A stretch of 54,105 nucleotides of DNA. It comes from a virus. The position numbers were made by a program, and so were the translations under genes. The DNA is taken from the IMG/VR virus record IMGVR_UViG_3300002242_000614, positions 3,381 through 57,485 of that record; one strand, 5' to 3'. Below, one piece after another: positions 3,953 through 48,637 of this stretch (positions are counted from its first letter, which is position 1; each line of letters opens with the position of its first letter). The notes beneath the pieces are model-generated. The model was not told where the DNA came from, made no database searches, and saw only the letters and a program-made list of their open reading frames with translations.

Positions 3953-4990
3953 TTACTTTTCGCTGAAATATTTGAGTCCAATTTCCTTATATTTTTCGAT
4001 TTTACTTTCATCGATATTTTTATATGCTAAATACGCATTGATAATTTCTTCATTGCTGGAATATGATGATATATCTGCTCTCTTTTCAATATCCAATTCC
4101 CTTTTATCAATAAGATTGACATCATCCATTGAAGAAACTGATTCGTCAATTTCCGAAAGATCATCCATATCTTCTTTTATAACAATATTTATTTCACTTT
4201 CTTCGTCTGAATTTTTTAATTTTTTTGCCTCCCTCAGCATTTCATTTTTATTTTCATTTGTGATAACAAACTCATACAATTTTTTATAGCCGACCGTAGG
4301 CACAGATTCAACTTTATCAGTCTCTGTATCAAATATTAAAAATCTTTTTATTTCATTTTTTTCACCTTTTGTTAATTGAATTATAGACCCTGCGTAAAAA
4401 CATTTTATTCCTTTATCTATAATTTCTTGGGGCAGATGATAATGTCCAAGGAAAACATTTTTATATTTCCCCTTAAGATCAGATAACTTAATATCTGTTC
4501 TTATGCTCAAACCGGAATTCACCATAGCTTCATTTAAACCAAAATGAGAATACAATGTTCTTGCCGTGTTTTCTTTTATATATTCTGCCATTCCATTGAA
4601 ATAAGGAACATATAAAATATCATTTTCTTTATCCTGATACGGCTCCATATAGACATTCACATTTGGTTCATATTTTAATCCGAGAAGACAAGACGTTGGA
4701 TTATCTCCCTTGCTTGAAATATCGTGATTGCCTTGCAGACAATTAAAAGTCAAATTTGGATAAGATCTAATTATATTTAAAAAAACACTTTGCGCTAAAG
4801 AATATATTAAAAATTTATTATGATAAATATCTCCAAGAATATCTATTGTTTTAATATTATTTTCCATTGCATAATCGCAAATATTCGTGAAAGTTCTCTT
4901 CAGATAAAAAAGTTTTTCTGGTAAACCTTCTTTTATTTTTCCGGCAGAATAAACCGAGAAATGCAAATCCGCTACAATTATACGTTTCAT
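3953..4990 (-). CDS. sbcD: SbcD/Mre11-like nuclease (T4 gp47 type)
   Basis: This is the calcineurin-like metallophosphoesterase partner of the SbcC-like ATPase. Metal-binding motifs are in the usual order: D8-x-H10 (VADLH), GD at 53-54, GNHD at 87-90, a histidine in YSHFG near 150, and GHYH near 196-199. The C-terminal third is acidic and low complexity (about residues 250-300) and is probably the capping or partner-binding region. Its start overlaps the helicase stop by four bases (ATGA), and a strong site (rc AAAGGAG) precedes the ATG. The helicase, SbcD and SbcC genes therefore form one tightly coupled operon, as expected for a recombination module. Confidence 0.95.
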   Translation of the reverse strand: MKRIIVADLHFSVYSAGKIKEGLPEKLFYLKRTFTNICDYAMENNIKTIDILGDIYHNKFLIYSLAQSVFLNIIRSYPNLTFNCLQGNHDISSKGDNPTSCLLGLKYEPNVNVYMEPYQDKENDILYVPYFNGMAEYIKENTARTLYSHFGLNEAMVNSGLSIRTDIKLSDLKGKYKNVFLGHYHLPQEIIDKGIKCFYAGSIIQLTKGEKNEIKRFLIFDTETDKVESVPTVGYKKLYEFVITNENKNEMLREAKKLKNSDEESEINIVIKEDMDDLSEIDESVSSMDDVNLIDKRELDIEKRADISSYSSNEEIINAYLAYKNIDESKIEKYKEIGLKYFSEK

Positions 4991-7385: not shown

Positions 7386-9095
7386 TTATGGGATTTTAAC
7401 ATGATGCCCATATCTTTTAATTTTATCTATGATTCCATTTTTAGAAATTATCCATATCATTTTTTTTGGGTATGCTTTAATATTTTCGGCACTTAAATTT
7501 TCAATATGCCCATCCGTGAATATCAAAGTGACGTCTGGTTTTAATTCTCTCGCTCTTTTCAAAGCGGGTGTTAAAAATGTTCCTCCTCTTCCTTTGAATT
7601 TAGGATCAATATCAGAAATTCTTTTGATCTCATACTCTTTTTGGATTTTCGCATCCACTTCTATTACAGTGATTTTCGTGTGTTTATCGTTCTCTAAAAG
7701 GCTTCTTGCGCCGATTAAAGATTCCTTCATCTCGTCTATATTCATAGAAGCGGATGTATCGACAATAATAACAACATTGAAGCTATAATCTTTGACCTTC
7801 CCCGGATACGGAAGAATCGTTGGCAACATCGTTTTATTCTCTTCCATATCCTTATTCAAAATAAAACTATATATCTTTTTCTTATTTAATCTCGTGGAGC
7901 TTCGTTTGAACTTAGAAACAATTGAAGCCCTTATTAAATTATGAATAATTTGATAATAAGGGAATTGTGGCGTTCCCAGCAAATCTTCACAAATTGTTGT
8001 TAAATAATTTGGAAGGTTGCCGATGGTTTTTTTGTTTCTCATGTCAGTTAATATTTCTCTGACATTTTTTTGAAGTTTAATATTTGCTTGGGTCATATTT
8101 TCTGCTTCTACATTTTTAACTCCCCAAAAATCATGATTGGATAGTAAATCTTTATTGCTGTTTAATCCACTGGTTTTCTCATTATTTTTCTGCCCACTTT
8201 CACAACCAGATTCTTTGTTTTTATCGCCAGATTTTTCATTATGTTTTTGATTTTTATCATCAGACTTTTCATTATGTTTTTGATTTTTATCATCAGACTT
8301 TTCATTATGTTTTTGATTTTTATCATCAGACTTTTCATCATGTTTTTTGTTGGTATTTTCTTCAGAAGAGCTATTATTATTTTCAATATTTTTTTCATTA
8401 ATATTATCATCATTTTTGCTGCGTACTTCATTATTTCTATCATCAGTTCCTTGATCAAAATTAGTATTCTCCTCGGACCCTGAACTTCCTCTATCGTCAT
8501 TACTTCGTTGTTCATTTTCACTTCTCCTTTTCAATAATTCCAAAAAATATTTATCCGATGAATAGTTTTTATCACGTGGAAGATCATAATCTTCCGGAAA
8601 TATAAGTTCATATGTTGCATTGTTTAAATAGATTTTTTTTGGTAAATTGGCATTGAAATTGATATACATGTCTGTTGCCAAATTATATAATTTTTCTTTT
8701 AAATTTATTTTATCTTCATCTGCTTCATATTTCAATATTTTATTTAACATTATCAAATGTTTATTTATTAAATGCATTCCTTCATGTTTAAGAAAATAAA
8801 AAAAGTTATTTTCATCGCATTGAAGAAGATATTCTGGATTATAATAAAGGACATAATTTCCATCTTTGAAAGAAACACCAAATGCCGCATCTAATTCTTT
8901 ACTCATTATTTTTTCTAAAGGCAAAAAAAGCCGCCCATAAAAACTTTTCTCAGCATTTAATTCATCGCCCTTTTTCCCAGAAAAACTCTTCCCCAATAAT
9001 GAAAATTTGGTTATATATTTTGAAATTAATTCTTCAGGCGTTTTTGTTTCACGTAAGGCTTTCGATTTTTTCATAGAAAAGTTTTCTGTATTCAT
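7386..9095 (-). CDS. Metallopeptidase-like / VWA-domain protein with repeat linker
   Basis: A 569-residue protein resembling the DUF2201 type, with an N-terminal putative metallopeptidase domain and a C-terminal von Willebrand A domain. An HEGMH sequence (HExxH form) occurs near residue 108. Residues about 190-320 form a hydrophilic Asn/Lys/Asp/Glu linker with four copies of an 11-residue unit (KSDDKNQKHNE). The VWA domain starts near 430 with the MIDAS motif DTSAS, followed by GGT and a TDGH segment. It overlaps by 47 bases the MoxR-type AAA+ gene just upstream. MoxR/VWA pairs generally act together to remodel protein complexes. Start ATG 9095 follows rc GAGGAT. Peptidase activity is inferred only from the motif. 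Confidence 0.85.
   Translation of the reverse strand: MNTENFSMKKSKALRETKTPEELISKYITKFSLLGKSFSGKKGDELNAEKSFYGRLFLPLEKIMSKELDAAFGVSFKDGNYVLYYNPEYLLQCDENNFFYFLKHEGMHLINKHLIMLNKILKYEADEDKINLKEKLYNLATDMYINFNANLPKKIYLNNATYELIFPEDYDLPRDKNYSSDKYFLELLKRRSENEQRSNDDRGSSGSEENTNFDQGTDDRNNEVRSKNDDNINEKNIENNNSSSEENTNKKHDEKSDDKNQKHNEKSDDKNQKHNEKSDDKNQKHNEKSGDKNKESGCESGQKNNEKTSGLNSNKDLLSNHDFWGVKNVEAENMTQANIKLQKNVREILTDMRNKKTIGNLPNYLTTICEDLLGTPQFPYYQIIHNLIRASIVSKFKRSSTRLNKKKIYSFILNKDMEENKTMLPTILPYPGKVKDYSFNVVIIVDTSASMNIDEMKESLIGARSLLENDKHTKITVIEVDAKIQKEYEIKRISDIDPKFKGRGGTFLTPALKRARELKPDVTLIFTDGHIENLSAENIKAYPKKMIWIISKNGIIDKIKRYGHHVKIP
8221..8352 (-). repeat. 33-base tandem repeats inside the VWA gene
   Basis: About four copies of a 33-base unit lie in frame, each encoding an 11-residue hydrophilic segment (KSDDKNQKHNE). 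The inner copies are almost identical in DNA sequence, so the array is recent or kept uniform by recombination, and copy number may vary between isolates or be misassembled. Confidence 0.85.
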
Positions 9096-10321: not shown

Positions 10322-11272
10322 TTACAGCTCGATATCGTCGAACTCAAACACCGAGTCGCCTCCATCACCCACGCCATCATCAATATCATCTTCAGAATTA
10401 TTATCGTCATCATCATTTTTATCATCATTTTTATTTTCCTTTATTATGTTGTCAAGTGTTGTATTTGTTTCAGCATTTGTTTCTACTTTGCTGTTTGTTT
10501 TGTCAAATTTATCCAAAAACTCTTCCTGGAACTCGTCAGAATCCTCAAGCTTGAGGAGTTTTATGACGAAACTCTTAGGAATCTCTTTGCCTCGTTCCAG
10601 AACAAAGGTTGTATAGTCTTCCCCGTCTGTTCCTGTTGTCTCGCCCAGAGTGATCCTAACAATAAATCTCTTTGGATTCGCGATATTTTGTTCCGTTCTT
10701 TTATCCTTCCGGCTCGCCCATTCAAAAATCTGGCCATCGCTGAAATCCTTTTCCGGGTCCAGTTTTATTACATCTTTATAATAGTTGAATATGGATGAGA
10801 ATTTAATCCCCCTCCCTTTGACAAAACCGAGAGCGGGTTTCCCATCTATTCCATTGACCGGTTTTCCATTCCTATCGCAAAGCATGCCGATCATGTAGAG
10901 GGACGCTCTGCAACTTGAACAGAAAACGTCGGATCTCCGTTCAGCAGAATTTGCAGGACAAATTCTACCGGTAGAAGATTTCCGGCCATCCATAAAAGAA
11001 AAACACAAGGTCTTCTTTTTGAATTCCTTCCCAGATTTAATAGTGTCTATCTTTTCCAACACCATTTTGAATTTCATTGGTATCAGAAAAACCTCATCTT
11101 TGTTGTAATCAACTCCATAGATATGGAGTTTGTCTCTTTGGAGAACAACGTCCCCCATTTTTCTTTTCTTGGCTGTGAAATAGATTGAATGAAAATATTC
11201 CTCTTCCGGCTCCCTTTGAATTTTTCCCAAAACCTCGTCTTTGTTAATATTATTGAAATCTGAAAGCTTCAT
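10322..11272 (-). CDS. Candidate ssDNA-binding protein, zinc-containing
   Basis: A 316-residue protein with visibly higher G+C and more regular codon use than its neighbours, as expected for a highly expressed gene. Cysteines near residues 103-123 (CPAN...CSSC) could bind zinc, as in T4 gp32. Residues about 255-316 are an extreme Asp/Asn/Glu tail ending in an acidic-hydrophobic tip (FEFDDIEL), a hallmark of SSB-type proteins that recruit partners through the C-terminus. It has its own strong ribosome site (rc AAAGGAG) and strong terminator. The assignment rests on architecture and neighbourhood, not on a recognised OB-fold signature. Another abundant DNA-binding protein is possible. Confidence 0.6.
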   Translation of the reverse strand: MKLSDFNNINKDEVLGKIQREPEEEYFHSIYFTAKKRKMGDVVLQRDKLHIYGVDYNKDEVFLIPMKFKMVLEKIDTIKSGKEFKKKTLCFSFMDGRKSSTGRICPANSAERRSDVFCSSCRASLYMIGMLCDRNGKPVNGIDGKPALGFVKGRGIKFSSIFNYYKDVIKLDPEKDFSDGQIFEWASRKDKRTEQNIANPKRFIVRITLGETTGTDGEDYTTFVLERGKEIPKSFVIKLLKLEDSDEFQEEFLDKFDKTNSKVETNAETNTTLDNIIKENKNDDKNDDDDNNSEDDIDDGVGDGGDSVFEFDDIEL

Positions 11273-11315
11273 TTTTTACTCCTTTGTTTCGAAATTGATA
11301 ATAAAAATATAAATT

Positions 11316-45870: not shown

Positions 45871-45881
45871 TTAATATATAG
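45871..45881 (-). promoter_or_regulatory. Possible promoter for the clamp operon
   Basis: On the minus strand CTATATATTAA lies about 45 bases upstream of the first clamp-operon gene, 10 bases after TTGACA. The core resembles the recurring TATATATA motif. It is back to back with the plus-strand motif at 45929, as expected for a divergent intergenic region. Confidence 0.4.
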
Positions 45882-45928
45882 GAATAGTTTTGTCAAGTAT
45901 TTTTATGAATAAAAAACTATTTGAAATT

Positions 45929-45949
45929 GCTATATATATTAATAAATAG
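45929..45949 (+). promoter_or_regulatory. Promoter-like motif before the GC-rich island
   Basis: GCTATATATATT, followed by AATAAATAG, lies just before the structured leader of the MYG1-like gene. It shares GCTATATATATT with the motif at 12028 on the other strand and closely resembles those at 47125 and 48397. Confidence 0.55.
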
Positions 45950-45960
45950 TAGTATAAGGC

Positions 45961-46025
45961 TTGTCTTCGGTAAAGGCCAGTTCTCTCGGGGGGAGAATGT
46001 TTGGAGCTACACTGACCGAAGACAA
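45961..46025 (+). ncRNA. Structured leader RNA, element 1
   Basis: Eleven-base arms TTGTCTTCGGT (45961-45971) and ACCGAAGACAA (46015-46025) pair perfectly. Directly inside, CAGT (45978-45981) pairs with ACTG (46011-46014), with a 6-base bulge on the 5-prime side. An inner hairpin TCTC/GAGA encloses a G-rich loop. The element lies between a promoter-like motif and the MYG1-like gene in a region far richer in G+C than the flanks. No known riboswitch class is recognised. Confidence 0.6.
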
Positions 46026-46054
46026 TGGCACCCCGTTTATTAACCATTAACGTC

Positions 46055-46126
46055 CCCGTCAACAATACGGGATATAAACCGAGGGTGATATCGTCCTCGG
46101 GGAAGTTCTCGGAATAACTTGACGGG
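46055..46126 (+). promoter_or_regulatory. Structured leader element 2 with alternative pairings before the RBS
   Basis: CCCGTCAA (46055-46062) pairs with TTGACGGG (46119-46126), enclosing a hairpin CCGAGG/CCTCGG (46079-46100). The same CCCGT can instead pair with a nearby ACGGG (46067-46071) across a 7-base loop. The outer 3-prime arm ends three bases before the ribosome site GGAGGG of the MYG1-like gene, so the choice of fold could affect translation. This is a riboswitch-like layout; a ligand cannot be guessed. Confidence 0.55.
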
Positions 46127-46138
46127 CCGGAGGGTGCG

Positions 46139-46975
46139 ATGGTTAAGTACATCGTCACTCACTCCGGGGGAGCTCACCGGGATGAGATCCTGGCGGTTGC
46201 CCTCGCTCTCAACGTAGAGAAATTCGTTGGGACTCCGAGGGTATATCGCCGGGATCCGAATCCCGGTGAGTTCGAGGACCCCCAAGTCCTCGTCCTTGAC
46301 GTAGGGCTGAGGCACGAGCCGACGCTCAACAACTTCGACCATCATCAGATGGAACCGAAGGTTGAGACGGCTGAGTGCGCGCTCAGTCTCTATGCCAAGG
46401 CAAGAGGACTTGAGGATTCCCTCAGGTACCAGAAATGGTACCGCACAAGCATCATTCTTGATGCTTGTGGGCCGTTTAAAACGGCGGGGGATCTGGGGTT
46501 GCCTCGTTTTCCGATGGAGCTGTTGTCTCCCATCGAAAGCGTTCTCATAGACGCTTTCCAGGGATGCGGCTCCGAGGTTAACGAGGCCGTCCTTGAGATC
46601 CTGGCGGGTCTCGGCAAGCGTATTCTGGCGAAAGCCAAAGAATACGTTTCCATAATCGAAGACCTTAAAAGCAAGGTCAAAATTATGGATATTGCCGGGG
46701 TCCAGGCCCTTGTTCTTGAGCAATCAGGAACAAAAGGGCTACAGGATCTTAGGGATGACCTCTTCCCGCAGGCTGGGATTTCCATTCTCCACGATGACCG
46801 TGGAGATGGATGGATCCTCTATCGTTTCAATGACGATAGAAGGGTCGATTTCAGCCTGCTGGGGGAGGACCCTAGAGTCCTCTTCGCCCACAAGGGGGGT
46901 TTTATTGCCAAAACCCTCCATCGGCTACCTCTTAATGAGGTGGTCGAGCTTGCTGCCAAAGGCGTAATAGCCTAG
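46139..46975 (+). CDS. MYG1-like DHH-type phosphoesterase (UPF0160)
   Basis: A 278-residue protein of the MYG1/UPF0160 family. The N-terminal metal motif THSGGAHRDE (7-16; MYG1 THxGxxHxDE) and NFDHHQ near 64-69 (the DHH motif) are clear, with further acidic residues in DVGLRHEP. MYG1 relatives are DHH-superfamily 3-prime to 5-prime RNA exonucleases or nanoRNases. The gene is visibly GC-rich compared with the AT-rich genome, is on the plus strand, and has a strong ribosome site (GGAGGG). It is shorter than eukaryotic MYG1 (about 380). Recent transfer is likely. Confidence 0.85.
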   Translation: MVKYIVTHSGGAHRDEILAVALALNVEKFVGTPRVYRRDPNPGEFEDPQVLVLDVGLRHEPTLNNFDHHQMEPKVETAECALSLYAKARGLEDSLRYQKWYRTSIILDACGPFKTAGDLGLPRFPMELLSPIESVLIDAFQGCGSEVNEAVLEILAGLGKRILAKAKEYVSIIEDLKSKVKIMDIAGVQALVLEQSGTKGLQDLRDDLFPQAGISILHDDRGDGWILYRFNDDRRVDFSLLGEDPRVLFAHKGGFIAKTLHRLPLNEVVELAAKGVIA

Positions 46976-47004
46976 GCACAAGTTGTGGGTGGCCCCGGTG
47001 CGGT

Positions 47005-47050
47005 TACCACGCCGCCTCAAGAAATGTGGTAGGGGTTTGGCAATAAACCC
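47005..47050 (+). other. Tandem hairpins after the MYG1-like gene
   Basis: TACCAC (47005-47010) pairs with GTGGTA (47026-47031), and GGGTTT (47033-47038) with AAACCC (47045-47050). Together with the terminator hairpin just downstream they form a three-hairpin 3-prime region of about 75 bases. It could be a stabilising 3-prime UTR or part of a small RNA. Confidence 0.45.
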
Positions 47051-47053
47051 TGG

Positions 47054-47084
47054 GAAGAGGAGGATATCCCACTCTTCTTTTTTG
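47054..47084 (+). terminator. Terminator of the MYG1-like gene
   Basis: GAAGAG pairs with CTCTTC across a loop containing the palindrome GGATATCC, followed by a T-run (TTTTTTG). Confidence 0.75.
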
Positions 47085-47124
47085 TAAAAATATTTTTCTT
47101 TTTAATCATAAAAGATATTAAAAA

Positions 47125-47149
47125 CATTATATATATTTCTTAATGAAAG
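47125..47149 (+). promoter_or_regulatory. Promoter-like motif before the 231-residue gene
   Basis: CATTATATATATTT, then CTTAATGAAAG. Together with about 20 upstream bases (AAAAGATATTAAAAAC) it closely matches the region at 48381-48420, showing a conserved upstream block of about 40 bases before two genes of the island. Confidence 0.55.
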
Positions 47150-47185
47150 ATATAGACATATAACAAAAAATCAAAGGAGACCATT

Positions 47186-47881
47186 ATGAAAACCGCACCA
47201 AACCCCACCCCAAACAGCGTCAAAGAGTCCCTCTCAATTGCCAAGCAGGTCAGGTGTTGTCCTCCTCCCGGCCTGAAGTCCAACGGCTATGAAAAATTTT
47301 TAAAAAAGCACATGGGCCTGTGCCCGTACTGCGGCACGGATCTTTCCATTTATGATAACAATGATGCACCGTGGGAAAAACTCGCAGACCGGCTGCAGAG
47401 GGTGCTGAAAAAAAGTAAATCGGAAGGCCCAATTAAAAAAGGTGAGCTAAGGAGGATTGCATCCAGGCTTGCCGGATGGCGAGATGGTTTTTATTACAAC
47501 CCGCCCCTTGTAATTGTTTATGAAGTAGATGCCGATTTCCCGGAAATTGTGCAGGTCGTACAGGTGTATGACGACATTCTGCTTGCCGGACCCGGGGATC
47601 TAATATTAACCGAAGATATGACCAACGGTACGGGCAGCCTCCTGGTAGAATGCTGGAATTCCTATACCATTAAGGCTTCTTTCTTAGATCCAACAATCTC
47701 TGTATTATCCGAAGAGATTATGGATGCCGTTTGTGAAATGGTGACAAACGAGGCATATACCCCGTCCTGGGCTCTTCTGCCCCCGCCTATGACTGAACAT
47801 GATCCCAGAAGATATTTCCGAAAACTCGAGGTTGATGTGGCCTATACCTTTGGTTCATATGCCGCCTCTGAACTCATCTAA
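47186..47881 (+). CDS. Zinc-finger-like protein of the GC-rich island
   Basis: A 231-residue protein. Near the N-terminus, CCPPPGL, a spaced His and CPYCGTDL (about residues 24-52) resemble the small zinc domain of anti-sigma factors (zf-HC2 type). The remainder is mixed alpha/beta with many acidic residues and no membrane segment. Codon use is G+C-richer than the flanking minus-strand genes. It has its own promoter-like block, a ribosome site (AAAGGAG) and a strong terminator. Function is not established; a regulator binding a sigma-like partner is only a guess. Confidence 0.65.
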   Translation: MKTAPNPTPNSVKESLSIAKQVRCCPPPGLKSNGYEKFLKKHMGLCPYCGTDLSIYDNNDAPWEKLADRLQRVLKKSKSEGPIKKGELRRIASRLAGWRDGFYYNPPLVIVYEVDADFPEIVQVVQVYDDILLAGPGDLILTEDMTNGTGSLLVECWNSYTIKASFLDPTISVLSEEIMDAVCEMVTNEAYTPSWALLPPPMTEHDPRRYFRKLEVDVAYTFGSYAASELI

Positions 47882-48198: not shown

Positions 48199-48396
48199 AC
48201 AAATTTTAATTTTCAAATTTATTAACAGAGTGACAAACATCAAACTAAAATCTCTATTCAAAACAATAATCATGAGAACAAATAAATTCTCTATCACTTT
48301 AATAACAATATCAAAATCAATTTAGTATAATAATATCCCACTCTTTTTTTTTTTTTTTAAAAATAATTCCCCTTATTTATAAAAGATCTTAAAAAC

Positions 48397-48420
48397 GCTA
48401 TATATATAAATTAATGAAAG
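48397..48420 (+). promoter_or_regulatory. Promoter-like motif before the 57-residue gene
   Basis: GCTATATATATAAATTAATG, then AAAG. Preceded by AAAAGATCTTAAAAAC, it matches the block before the 231-residue gene (47107-47149) over about 40 bases. Confidence 0.55.
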
Positions 48421-48463
48421 AAATAGATGAATTAAAATAAATAATGAAAGGAGGTGATGATGT

Positions 48464-48637
48464 ATGAGAATTATAGGTGTAGATAAGAATGGAGTCGTGG
48501 TCTTCTCGGCCACATCTGAATCCGAGGCCCGAAGAAAGCTCCTCGATAGGAGCTGGGGCAGGGGCAGGGATCGGAAGGTTCGCGAGGAGACTGAGGCAAA
48601 CGATGATGTAACCGAGGCGAAGGACACGCCTCGATAA
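48464..48637 (+). CDS. Small charged protein of the GC-rich island
   Basis: A 57-residue protein: a short beta-like start (MRIIGVDKNGVVVFSA), then an Arg/Glu-rich helical part. The G+C content is high. The site AAAGGAGG lies 8 bases before ATG 48464; a competing ATG at 48458 gives only a nine-codon frame. A terminator follows. It was too short and unlike its flanks to be grouped with any known gene. Function unknown. Confidence 0.62.
   Translation: MRIIGVDKNGVVVFSATSESEARRKLLDRSWGRGRDRKVREETEANDDVTEAKDTPR

Follow-up and report, generated by a model that had tools for sequence, protein, structure and literature searches.

The window analyzed here, a stretch of 54,105 nucleotides from the IMG/VR virus record IMGVR_UViG_3300002242_000614 (57,485 bases, ~28% GC, genes mainly on the minus strand), contains a GC-rich plus-strand stretch, from 45961 to ~47080, that consists of a leader followed by a 278-codon MYG1-like gene. 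We found that the fold of this RNA belongs to the mRNA as a whole and not to a discrete leader aptamer, and we consider it very probable (about 0.9) that the whole message is structured through selection acting at the RNA level. The leader, which an initial annotation had singled out as a structured element in front of the gene, is real. It is merely the first sixth of a larger folded transcript that includes the gene and the 3′ end, and the start hairpin and the entire coding region, which that annotation missed, are folded as well. Coordinates are those of the window and refer to the plus strand unless stated otherwise.

The evidence that carries this finding comes from comparing the MYG1-like gene with synonymous shuffles, in which synonymous codons are swapped within the gene while the protein, the codon usage, and the GC content are kept. 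In 120-base windows, the mean folding energy of the gene is −53.8 kcal/mol, compared with −36.5 ± 1.4 kcal/mol in the shuffles (z = −12.2), which amounts to an excess of −17 kcal/mol per 120 nucleotides. When dinucleotides are also kept, the coding region lies at z = −8.3, and none of 200 shuffles comes near it. The minimum free energy shows the same excess (−454.8 versus −291.6 ± 11.5 kcal/mol in shuffles), as does the number of perfect helices of at least 8 base pairs (11 versus 2.75 expected), a count that is independent of the energy model. When the whole unit is folded, 76% of the coding bases are paired, and stems of up to 16 base pairs close multi-branched domains that span up to ~190 nucleotides and cover the whole unit. 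The mean unpaired probability is 0.234, versus 0.359 in the shuffles (range 0.336–0.385), 0.32–0.33 in two MS2 stretches, and 0.32–0.40 in four bacterial homologues. Finally, the sense strand is the more stable of the two: the sense minus antisense energy is −10.3 kcal/mol per window, versus −2.9 ± 1.3 kcal/mol in the shuffles. This excess on the sense strand, together with the 43 G-U pairs that the sense fold contains, makes selection on the message RNA the most likely cause and argues against a cause at the DNA level.

Folding of this extent is unusual. The MYG1-like gene is the extreme of ~60 open reading frames (ORFs) in the window, the next being a minus-strand gene at 10322–11272 (z = −5.0), which is SSB-like as judged by reading its sequence and has a locally raised GC content. 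It is also the most extreme of more than 1,300 sampled ORFs (~1,000 from phages and 348 from bacteria), drawn from comparison sets that were chosen mechanically and include some ORFs that are not genes. The excess below shuffles per 120 bases is 7.5–9.5 kcal/mol for MS2 genes, at most 7 kcal/mol for T4 and T7 ORFs, at most 4.5 kcal/mol for the 348 bacterial ORFs, and at most 8.1 kcal/mol for ORFs from a further two large phage records. Thirty bacterial MYG1 homologues, with GC contents of 45–72%, show no excess of coding structure (z from −1.7 to +2.3), and the neighboring plus-strand gene at 47186 (48% GC) is not comparably structured (z = −1.8). The 121 kb record of a relative of the phage, L088, holds neither a MYG1 match nor a comparable structure.

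The start site is sealed within this fold. In the start hairpin (46127–46170), the Shine-Dalgarno sequence GGAGGG (46129–46134) and the AUG (46139–46141) lie in a stem with codons 4–10; the segment 46127–46175 folds at −22.7 kcal/mol (z = −3.6), and the unpaired probability is 0.04 for the Shine-Dalgarno sequence and 0.00 for the AUG. Opening the ribosome footprint at the AUG is predicted to cost 27.5 kcal/mol, the highest value among the window genes tested, compared with a median of 7.9 kcal/mol for the larger genes of the window, a maximum of 18.6 kcal/mol among 20 T7 genes, and 15.4 kcal/mol for the MS2 maturation gene. The other structured phage genes that we found have more open starts, with the sole exception of a minus-strand gene at 7595–8104 of record L097 (24.0 kcal/mol; coding structure z = −6.8). 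This gene lies near the MYG1-like gene of that 183 kb phage record, as does another minus-strand gene at 10677–11300 (z = −4.2). When folding is followed on the growing RNA, the Shine-Dalgarno sequence of our message stays ~30% free up to about base 46160 and closes after that. The maturation gene of MS2 offers a precedent: ribosomes translate it off a transient fold, before the leader has closed (PMC6733600).

The region from ~45944 to 47083 would be a single short phage transcription unit, giving a monocistronic message of ~1.13 kb whose ends are inferred. Upstream, a promoter-like region (45919–45950; TTGAAA ... GCTATATATATTAAT) would place the transcript start at ~45944–45950. Its 45929–45950 segment is a copy, with 3 mismatches, of a 22-base promoter-like element that occurs at 7 sites in the window versus 1.1 expected (none of 100 shuffles reaches 7) and that has perfect copies upstream of the next plus-strand genes, at 47126 and 48397. 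Near the putative 5′ end of the message lies leader element 1 (45961–46025), in which a closing stem surrounds inner helices. The 11-base perfect stem described in the initial annotation is borne out: TTGTCTTCGGT (45961–45971) pairs with ACCGAAGACAA (46015–46025) in 11 of 11 Watson-Crick pairs, with a pair probability of 0.99. Dinucleotide shuffling of the leader gave no perfect helix of 11 bp in 300 trials, and element 1 by itself has z = −3.1, a value that 1 of 500 shuffles reached. At the other end, the 3′ untranslated region (46976–47066) base-pairs with the last part of the gene in the global fold (46877–46911 with 47037–47065), and a 20-nucleotide inverted repeat (46898–46917/47031–47050) joins the two. 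A likely intrinsic terminator follows at 47054–47083 (GAAGAG, 12 nucleotides, CTCTTC, and then TTTTTT); it was read by eye directly from the sequence, the terminator scan allowing only loops shorter than its 12-nucleotide loop.

The unit is flanked on both sides by phage genes within a double-stranded DNA (dsDNA) phage record and does not encode a replicase, which rules out a single-stranded RNA phage or replicon. A repeated intergenic module, consisting of CCCACTCTT with a T run, an AT-rich spacer, and TTAAAAAC..TATATATA..AATTAATGAAAG, precedes successive GC-rich plus-strand genes (45880–45950, 47065–47185, and 48325–48465), although the match before 45961 is weak; modules and genes together look like exchangeable gene cassettes. 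Within the leader, an upstream ORF of 30 codons (46025–46117; MAPRLLTINVPVNNTGYKPRVISSSGKFSE and a stop) ends 21 nucleotides 5′ of the MYG1 AUG; it lacks a strong Shine-Dalgarno site, and ORFs of this length are not unusual by chance. A 227-codon ORF antisense to the MYG1-like gene (46040–46723, minus strand) was not accepted as a gene, since codon often faces codon in register within the stems (125 of 291 pairs), and it is probably a by-product of this pairing. Elsewhere in the window, a tandem repeat (8214–8347; 4.1 copies of 33 bases, 95% identical) lies within a long minus-strand ORF.

The gene itself (46139–46975) encodes a 278-residue protein of the DHH phosphoesterase family, which matches Pfam PF03690 (MYG1_exonuc) over residues 5–72 (E = 5.6e-10) and the profile of a solved MYG1 exonuclease over ~65 residues (E = 1.6e-13). 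All DHH-family motif residues are present, the metal-binding H/D residues among them, and H8, H13, D15, D54, D67-H68-H69, and H251 are invariant in 24 sequences. The structure model is confident (pLDDT 92.7), and its top structural matches are DHH-family folds (a pGpG phosphodiesterase, NrnA, and RecJ); since the overall TM-scores are low, the match is to the type of domain. The eukaryotic MYG1 is described as an RNA exonuclease that works in the 3′–5′ direction and acts against viruses in yeast (PMC10089162), and by analogy the phage protein may cut RNA.

As to what the whole-message fold does, we put the chances at about even that it provides armor against nucleases together with a locked start. 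Under this mechanism, synonymous positions would have been shaped so that the whole mRNA folds into stable local domains, and the 5′ stem, the packed coding region, and the 3′ pairing would leave few unpaired stretches for endo- and exoribonucleases to attack, resulting in a lasting message. At equilibrium, the start hairpin would keep this message silent; translation would begin only on RNA still being transcribed, before synthesis has reached about base 46165, or when a ribosome arriving from upstream opens the hairpin. The outcome would be a long-lived yet tightly dosed supply of the DHH phosphoesterase. The fold may also shield the message from its own product.

Strongly structured genes also occur in other phages. 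In IMG/VR, the MYG1-like gene, the gene after it, and a clamp-loader-like gene had only one or a few distant loci as relatives, and no relatives were found among GenBank phages. Three other phage records with a MYG1-like gene (L007, L002, and L006) carry a strongly structured gene at or near it. In L007, these are the MYG1-like gene itself and the second ORF downstream (z = −6.8 for both), and in L002, it is the second gene downstream (4365–4934, plus strand; z = −5.5). The product of the latter has a zinc-ribbon-like CxxC...CxxC pattern at its C terminus, and CxxC motifs are also found in the window at 47186–47881. In L006, a plus-strand gene for 135 amino acids (2001–2408), with 45% GC in a locus of 36% GC, lies ~500 bases upstream of the MYG1-like gene and has a coding structure of z = −6.7 to −9.0. 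Its counterpart in L109 (3001–3399, plus strand; 72% protein identity) is structured too (z = −7.7 and −5.1 for the pair). Among the pairs that changed on both sides between these two genes, 8 are kept and 5–6 broken; this small sample suggests that the structured state is maintained while single helices turn over. It is possible, and we propose it only tentatively, that superfolder mRNAs have evolved naturally as a class in some dsDNA phages, often beside MYG1-like nuclease genes, and that synonymous selection has made them nuclease-resistant and translationally locked. Such messages would outlast RNA degradation, whether by the nuclease of the phage itself or by host defense, and would be translated under defined conditions only. 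Among the open-license papers searched, none describes a DNA phage message folded in this way.

Several observations weigh against our interpretation of a message selected for its fold. All of the structure predictions come from one energy model at 37°C, and the searches found no close relative in which covariation of this RNA could be followed. In L002, the closest relative at the protein level (53% identity), coding structure is only moderate (z = −3.1), and the MYG1-like genes of L003–L005 have little or none (z from +0.9 to −2.0), so that the protein does not generally require such structure; nor do L003–L005 hold another gene of comparable strength at or near MYG1. A start hairpin this strong could mean that there is almost no translation. 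The upstream ORF, which could bring ribosomes to the MYG1 AUG, may be there by chance.

Among the alternatives, the one that survives best, although we consider it unlikely, is that the fold hides the message of an early counter-defense enzyme from defenses that act on single-stranded RNA, such as type III and type VI CRISPR systems or toxin RNases. The structure is indeed on the sense RNA, a phage-type promoter lies upstream as it does for other plus-strand genes, and pGpG and oligo-RNA phosphodiesterases are among the solved folds nearest to the DHH fold, so that the enzyme could act on signal nucleotides. However, PADLOC returned no match, and the neighboring plus-strand genes, such as the one at 47186, are not comparably structured.

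It is less likely still that the leader alone acts as a ligand-sensing riboswitch or attenuator and that the coding structure is incidental. The whole leader (45961–46138) has a folding energy of −67.7 kcal/mol (z = −3.3), matched by 1 of 500 dinucleotide shuffles, and the leader of L002 is fairly structured too (z = −2.6). The initial annotation had further noted two exclusive pairings for CCCGT in leader element 2 (46055–46126), and both are present in the sequence where it placed them. In one, a long-range stem around hairpins joins CCCGTCAA (46055–46062) to TTGACGGG (46119–46126) and ends three bases 5′ of the Shine-Dalgarno sequence; in the other, CCCGT (46055–46059) pairs with ACGGG (46067–46071) in a short hairpin (46055–46071). 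The two do exclude each other, but they are far from balanced: the long stem is favored by 5.3 kcal/mol and takes an ensemble probability of 0.97, versus 0.00 for the short hairpin. This gap rules out an equilibrium switch, and the short pairing could only be transient at most. As had also been stated, the leader matches no known class. In Rfam, tRNA was the only family matched at the gathering threshold, the permissive threshold gave just one chance match to a lncRNA (E = 1.2), and no match up to E = 5 goes beyond chance. A leader shared among relatives, on which the initial annotation had staked its reading beforehand, was not seen: in phage relatives of the protein, the sequence upstream does not align with it, with no convincing match to the leaders of L002 and L007, and therefore there is no covariation. 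Since the leader neither matches Rfam nor is conserved, a riboswitch is not supported; moreover, the coding region is much more structured than the leader. What stands of the proposed regulatory layout is a non-random leader next to a sequestered ribosome site, for which action in cis is plausible, and what lacks support is the two-state riboswitch.

Equally improbable is that the RNA also works as a folded RNA, for instance as a packaged RNA, a protein scaffold, or a sponge, and codes for protein by happenstance. Closed multi-branched domains over a whole unit are unusual for an mRNA and would fit such a role; against it, conservation of the protein is good, its catalytic residues are intact, its model is confident, a Shine-Dalgarno sequence is present, and no RNA family matches. 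We regard it as very improbable that the hairpins were produced at the DNA level, either by template switching during palindrome repair or because single-stranded DNA was under selection, and are meaningless for the RNA. The antisense strand likewise folds better than its own shuffles do (z = −6.4), as is expected for any inverted repeat, but the sense strand gains far more, its fold contains G-U pairs, its long-range domain stems are not local palindromes, and the rest of the genome shows no such excess. That a recently imported GC-rich gene (54% GC in a genome of 28%) folds from its base composition alone is ruled out by the synonymous shuffles, which keep codon usage and thus GC, and by the unstructured next gene and bacterial homologues.

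Altogether, our results describe whole-message folding at a scale otherwise seen in the genomes of RNA viruses and in therapeutic mRNAs made by design. Going beyond MS2 and coming near designed superfolders, this gene of a DNA phage would be a natural experiment on how foldable a message can be and yet remain usable. If the fold protects the message, it would give the phage a route around RNA decay or RNA-targeting defense and would offer a natural design principle for stable mRNAs.

Comparison with known systems places this message as follows. With the MYG1 exonuclease family (PF03690), the protein shares the N-terminal DHH domain and its motifs; the profile homology is limited to ~70 N-terminal residues, and, unlike here, the coding RNA of the cellular homologues is unstructured. 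Type I toxin mRNAs such as aapA3 and hok (PMC6733600) resemble it in that a very stable fold sequesters the ribosome site and short-lived co-transcriptional structures are possible, but the phage message is longer, encodes a predicted catalytic enzyme, and has no identified antisense RNA or processing switch. As in the single-stranded RNA phages (MS2, Leviviricetes), the coding RNA is ordered beyond codon-preserving chance and the start site is under structural control, whereas here a single gene of a dsDNA phage is concerned instead of an RNA genome, with a folding excess about twice that of MS2 genes and a more tightly sealed start. Finally, superfolder mRNAs designed by computer or by players reach unpaired probabilities of 0.15–0.21, versus 0.34–0.40 for ordinary designs (PMC8499941). 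In both the engineered and the phage message, synonymous choice lowers the unpaired probability over the coding region, and protection from cleavage is expected; the phage message differs in that it is natural, that its value of 0.23 is slightly above those of the designs, and that its start is closed, which was not a stated goal of the designs.
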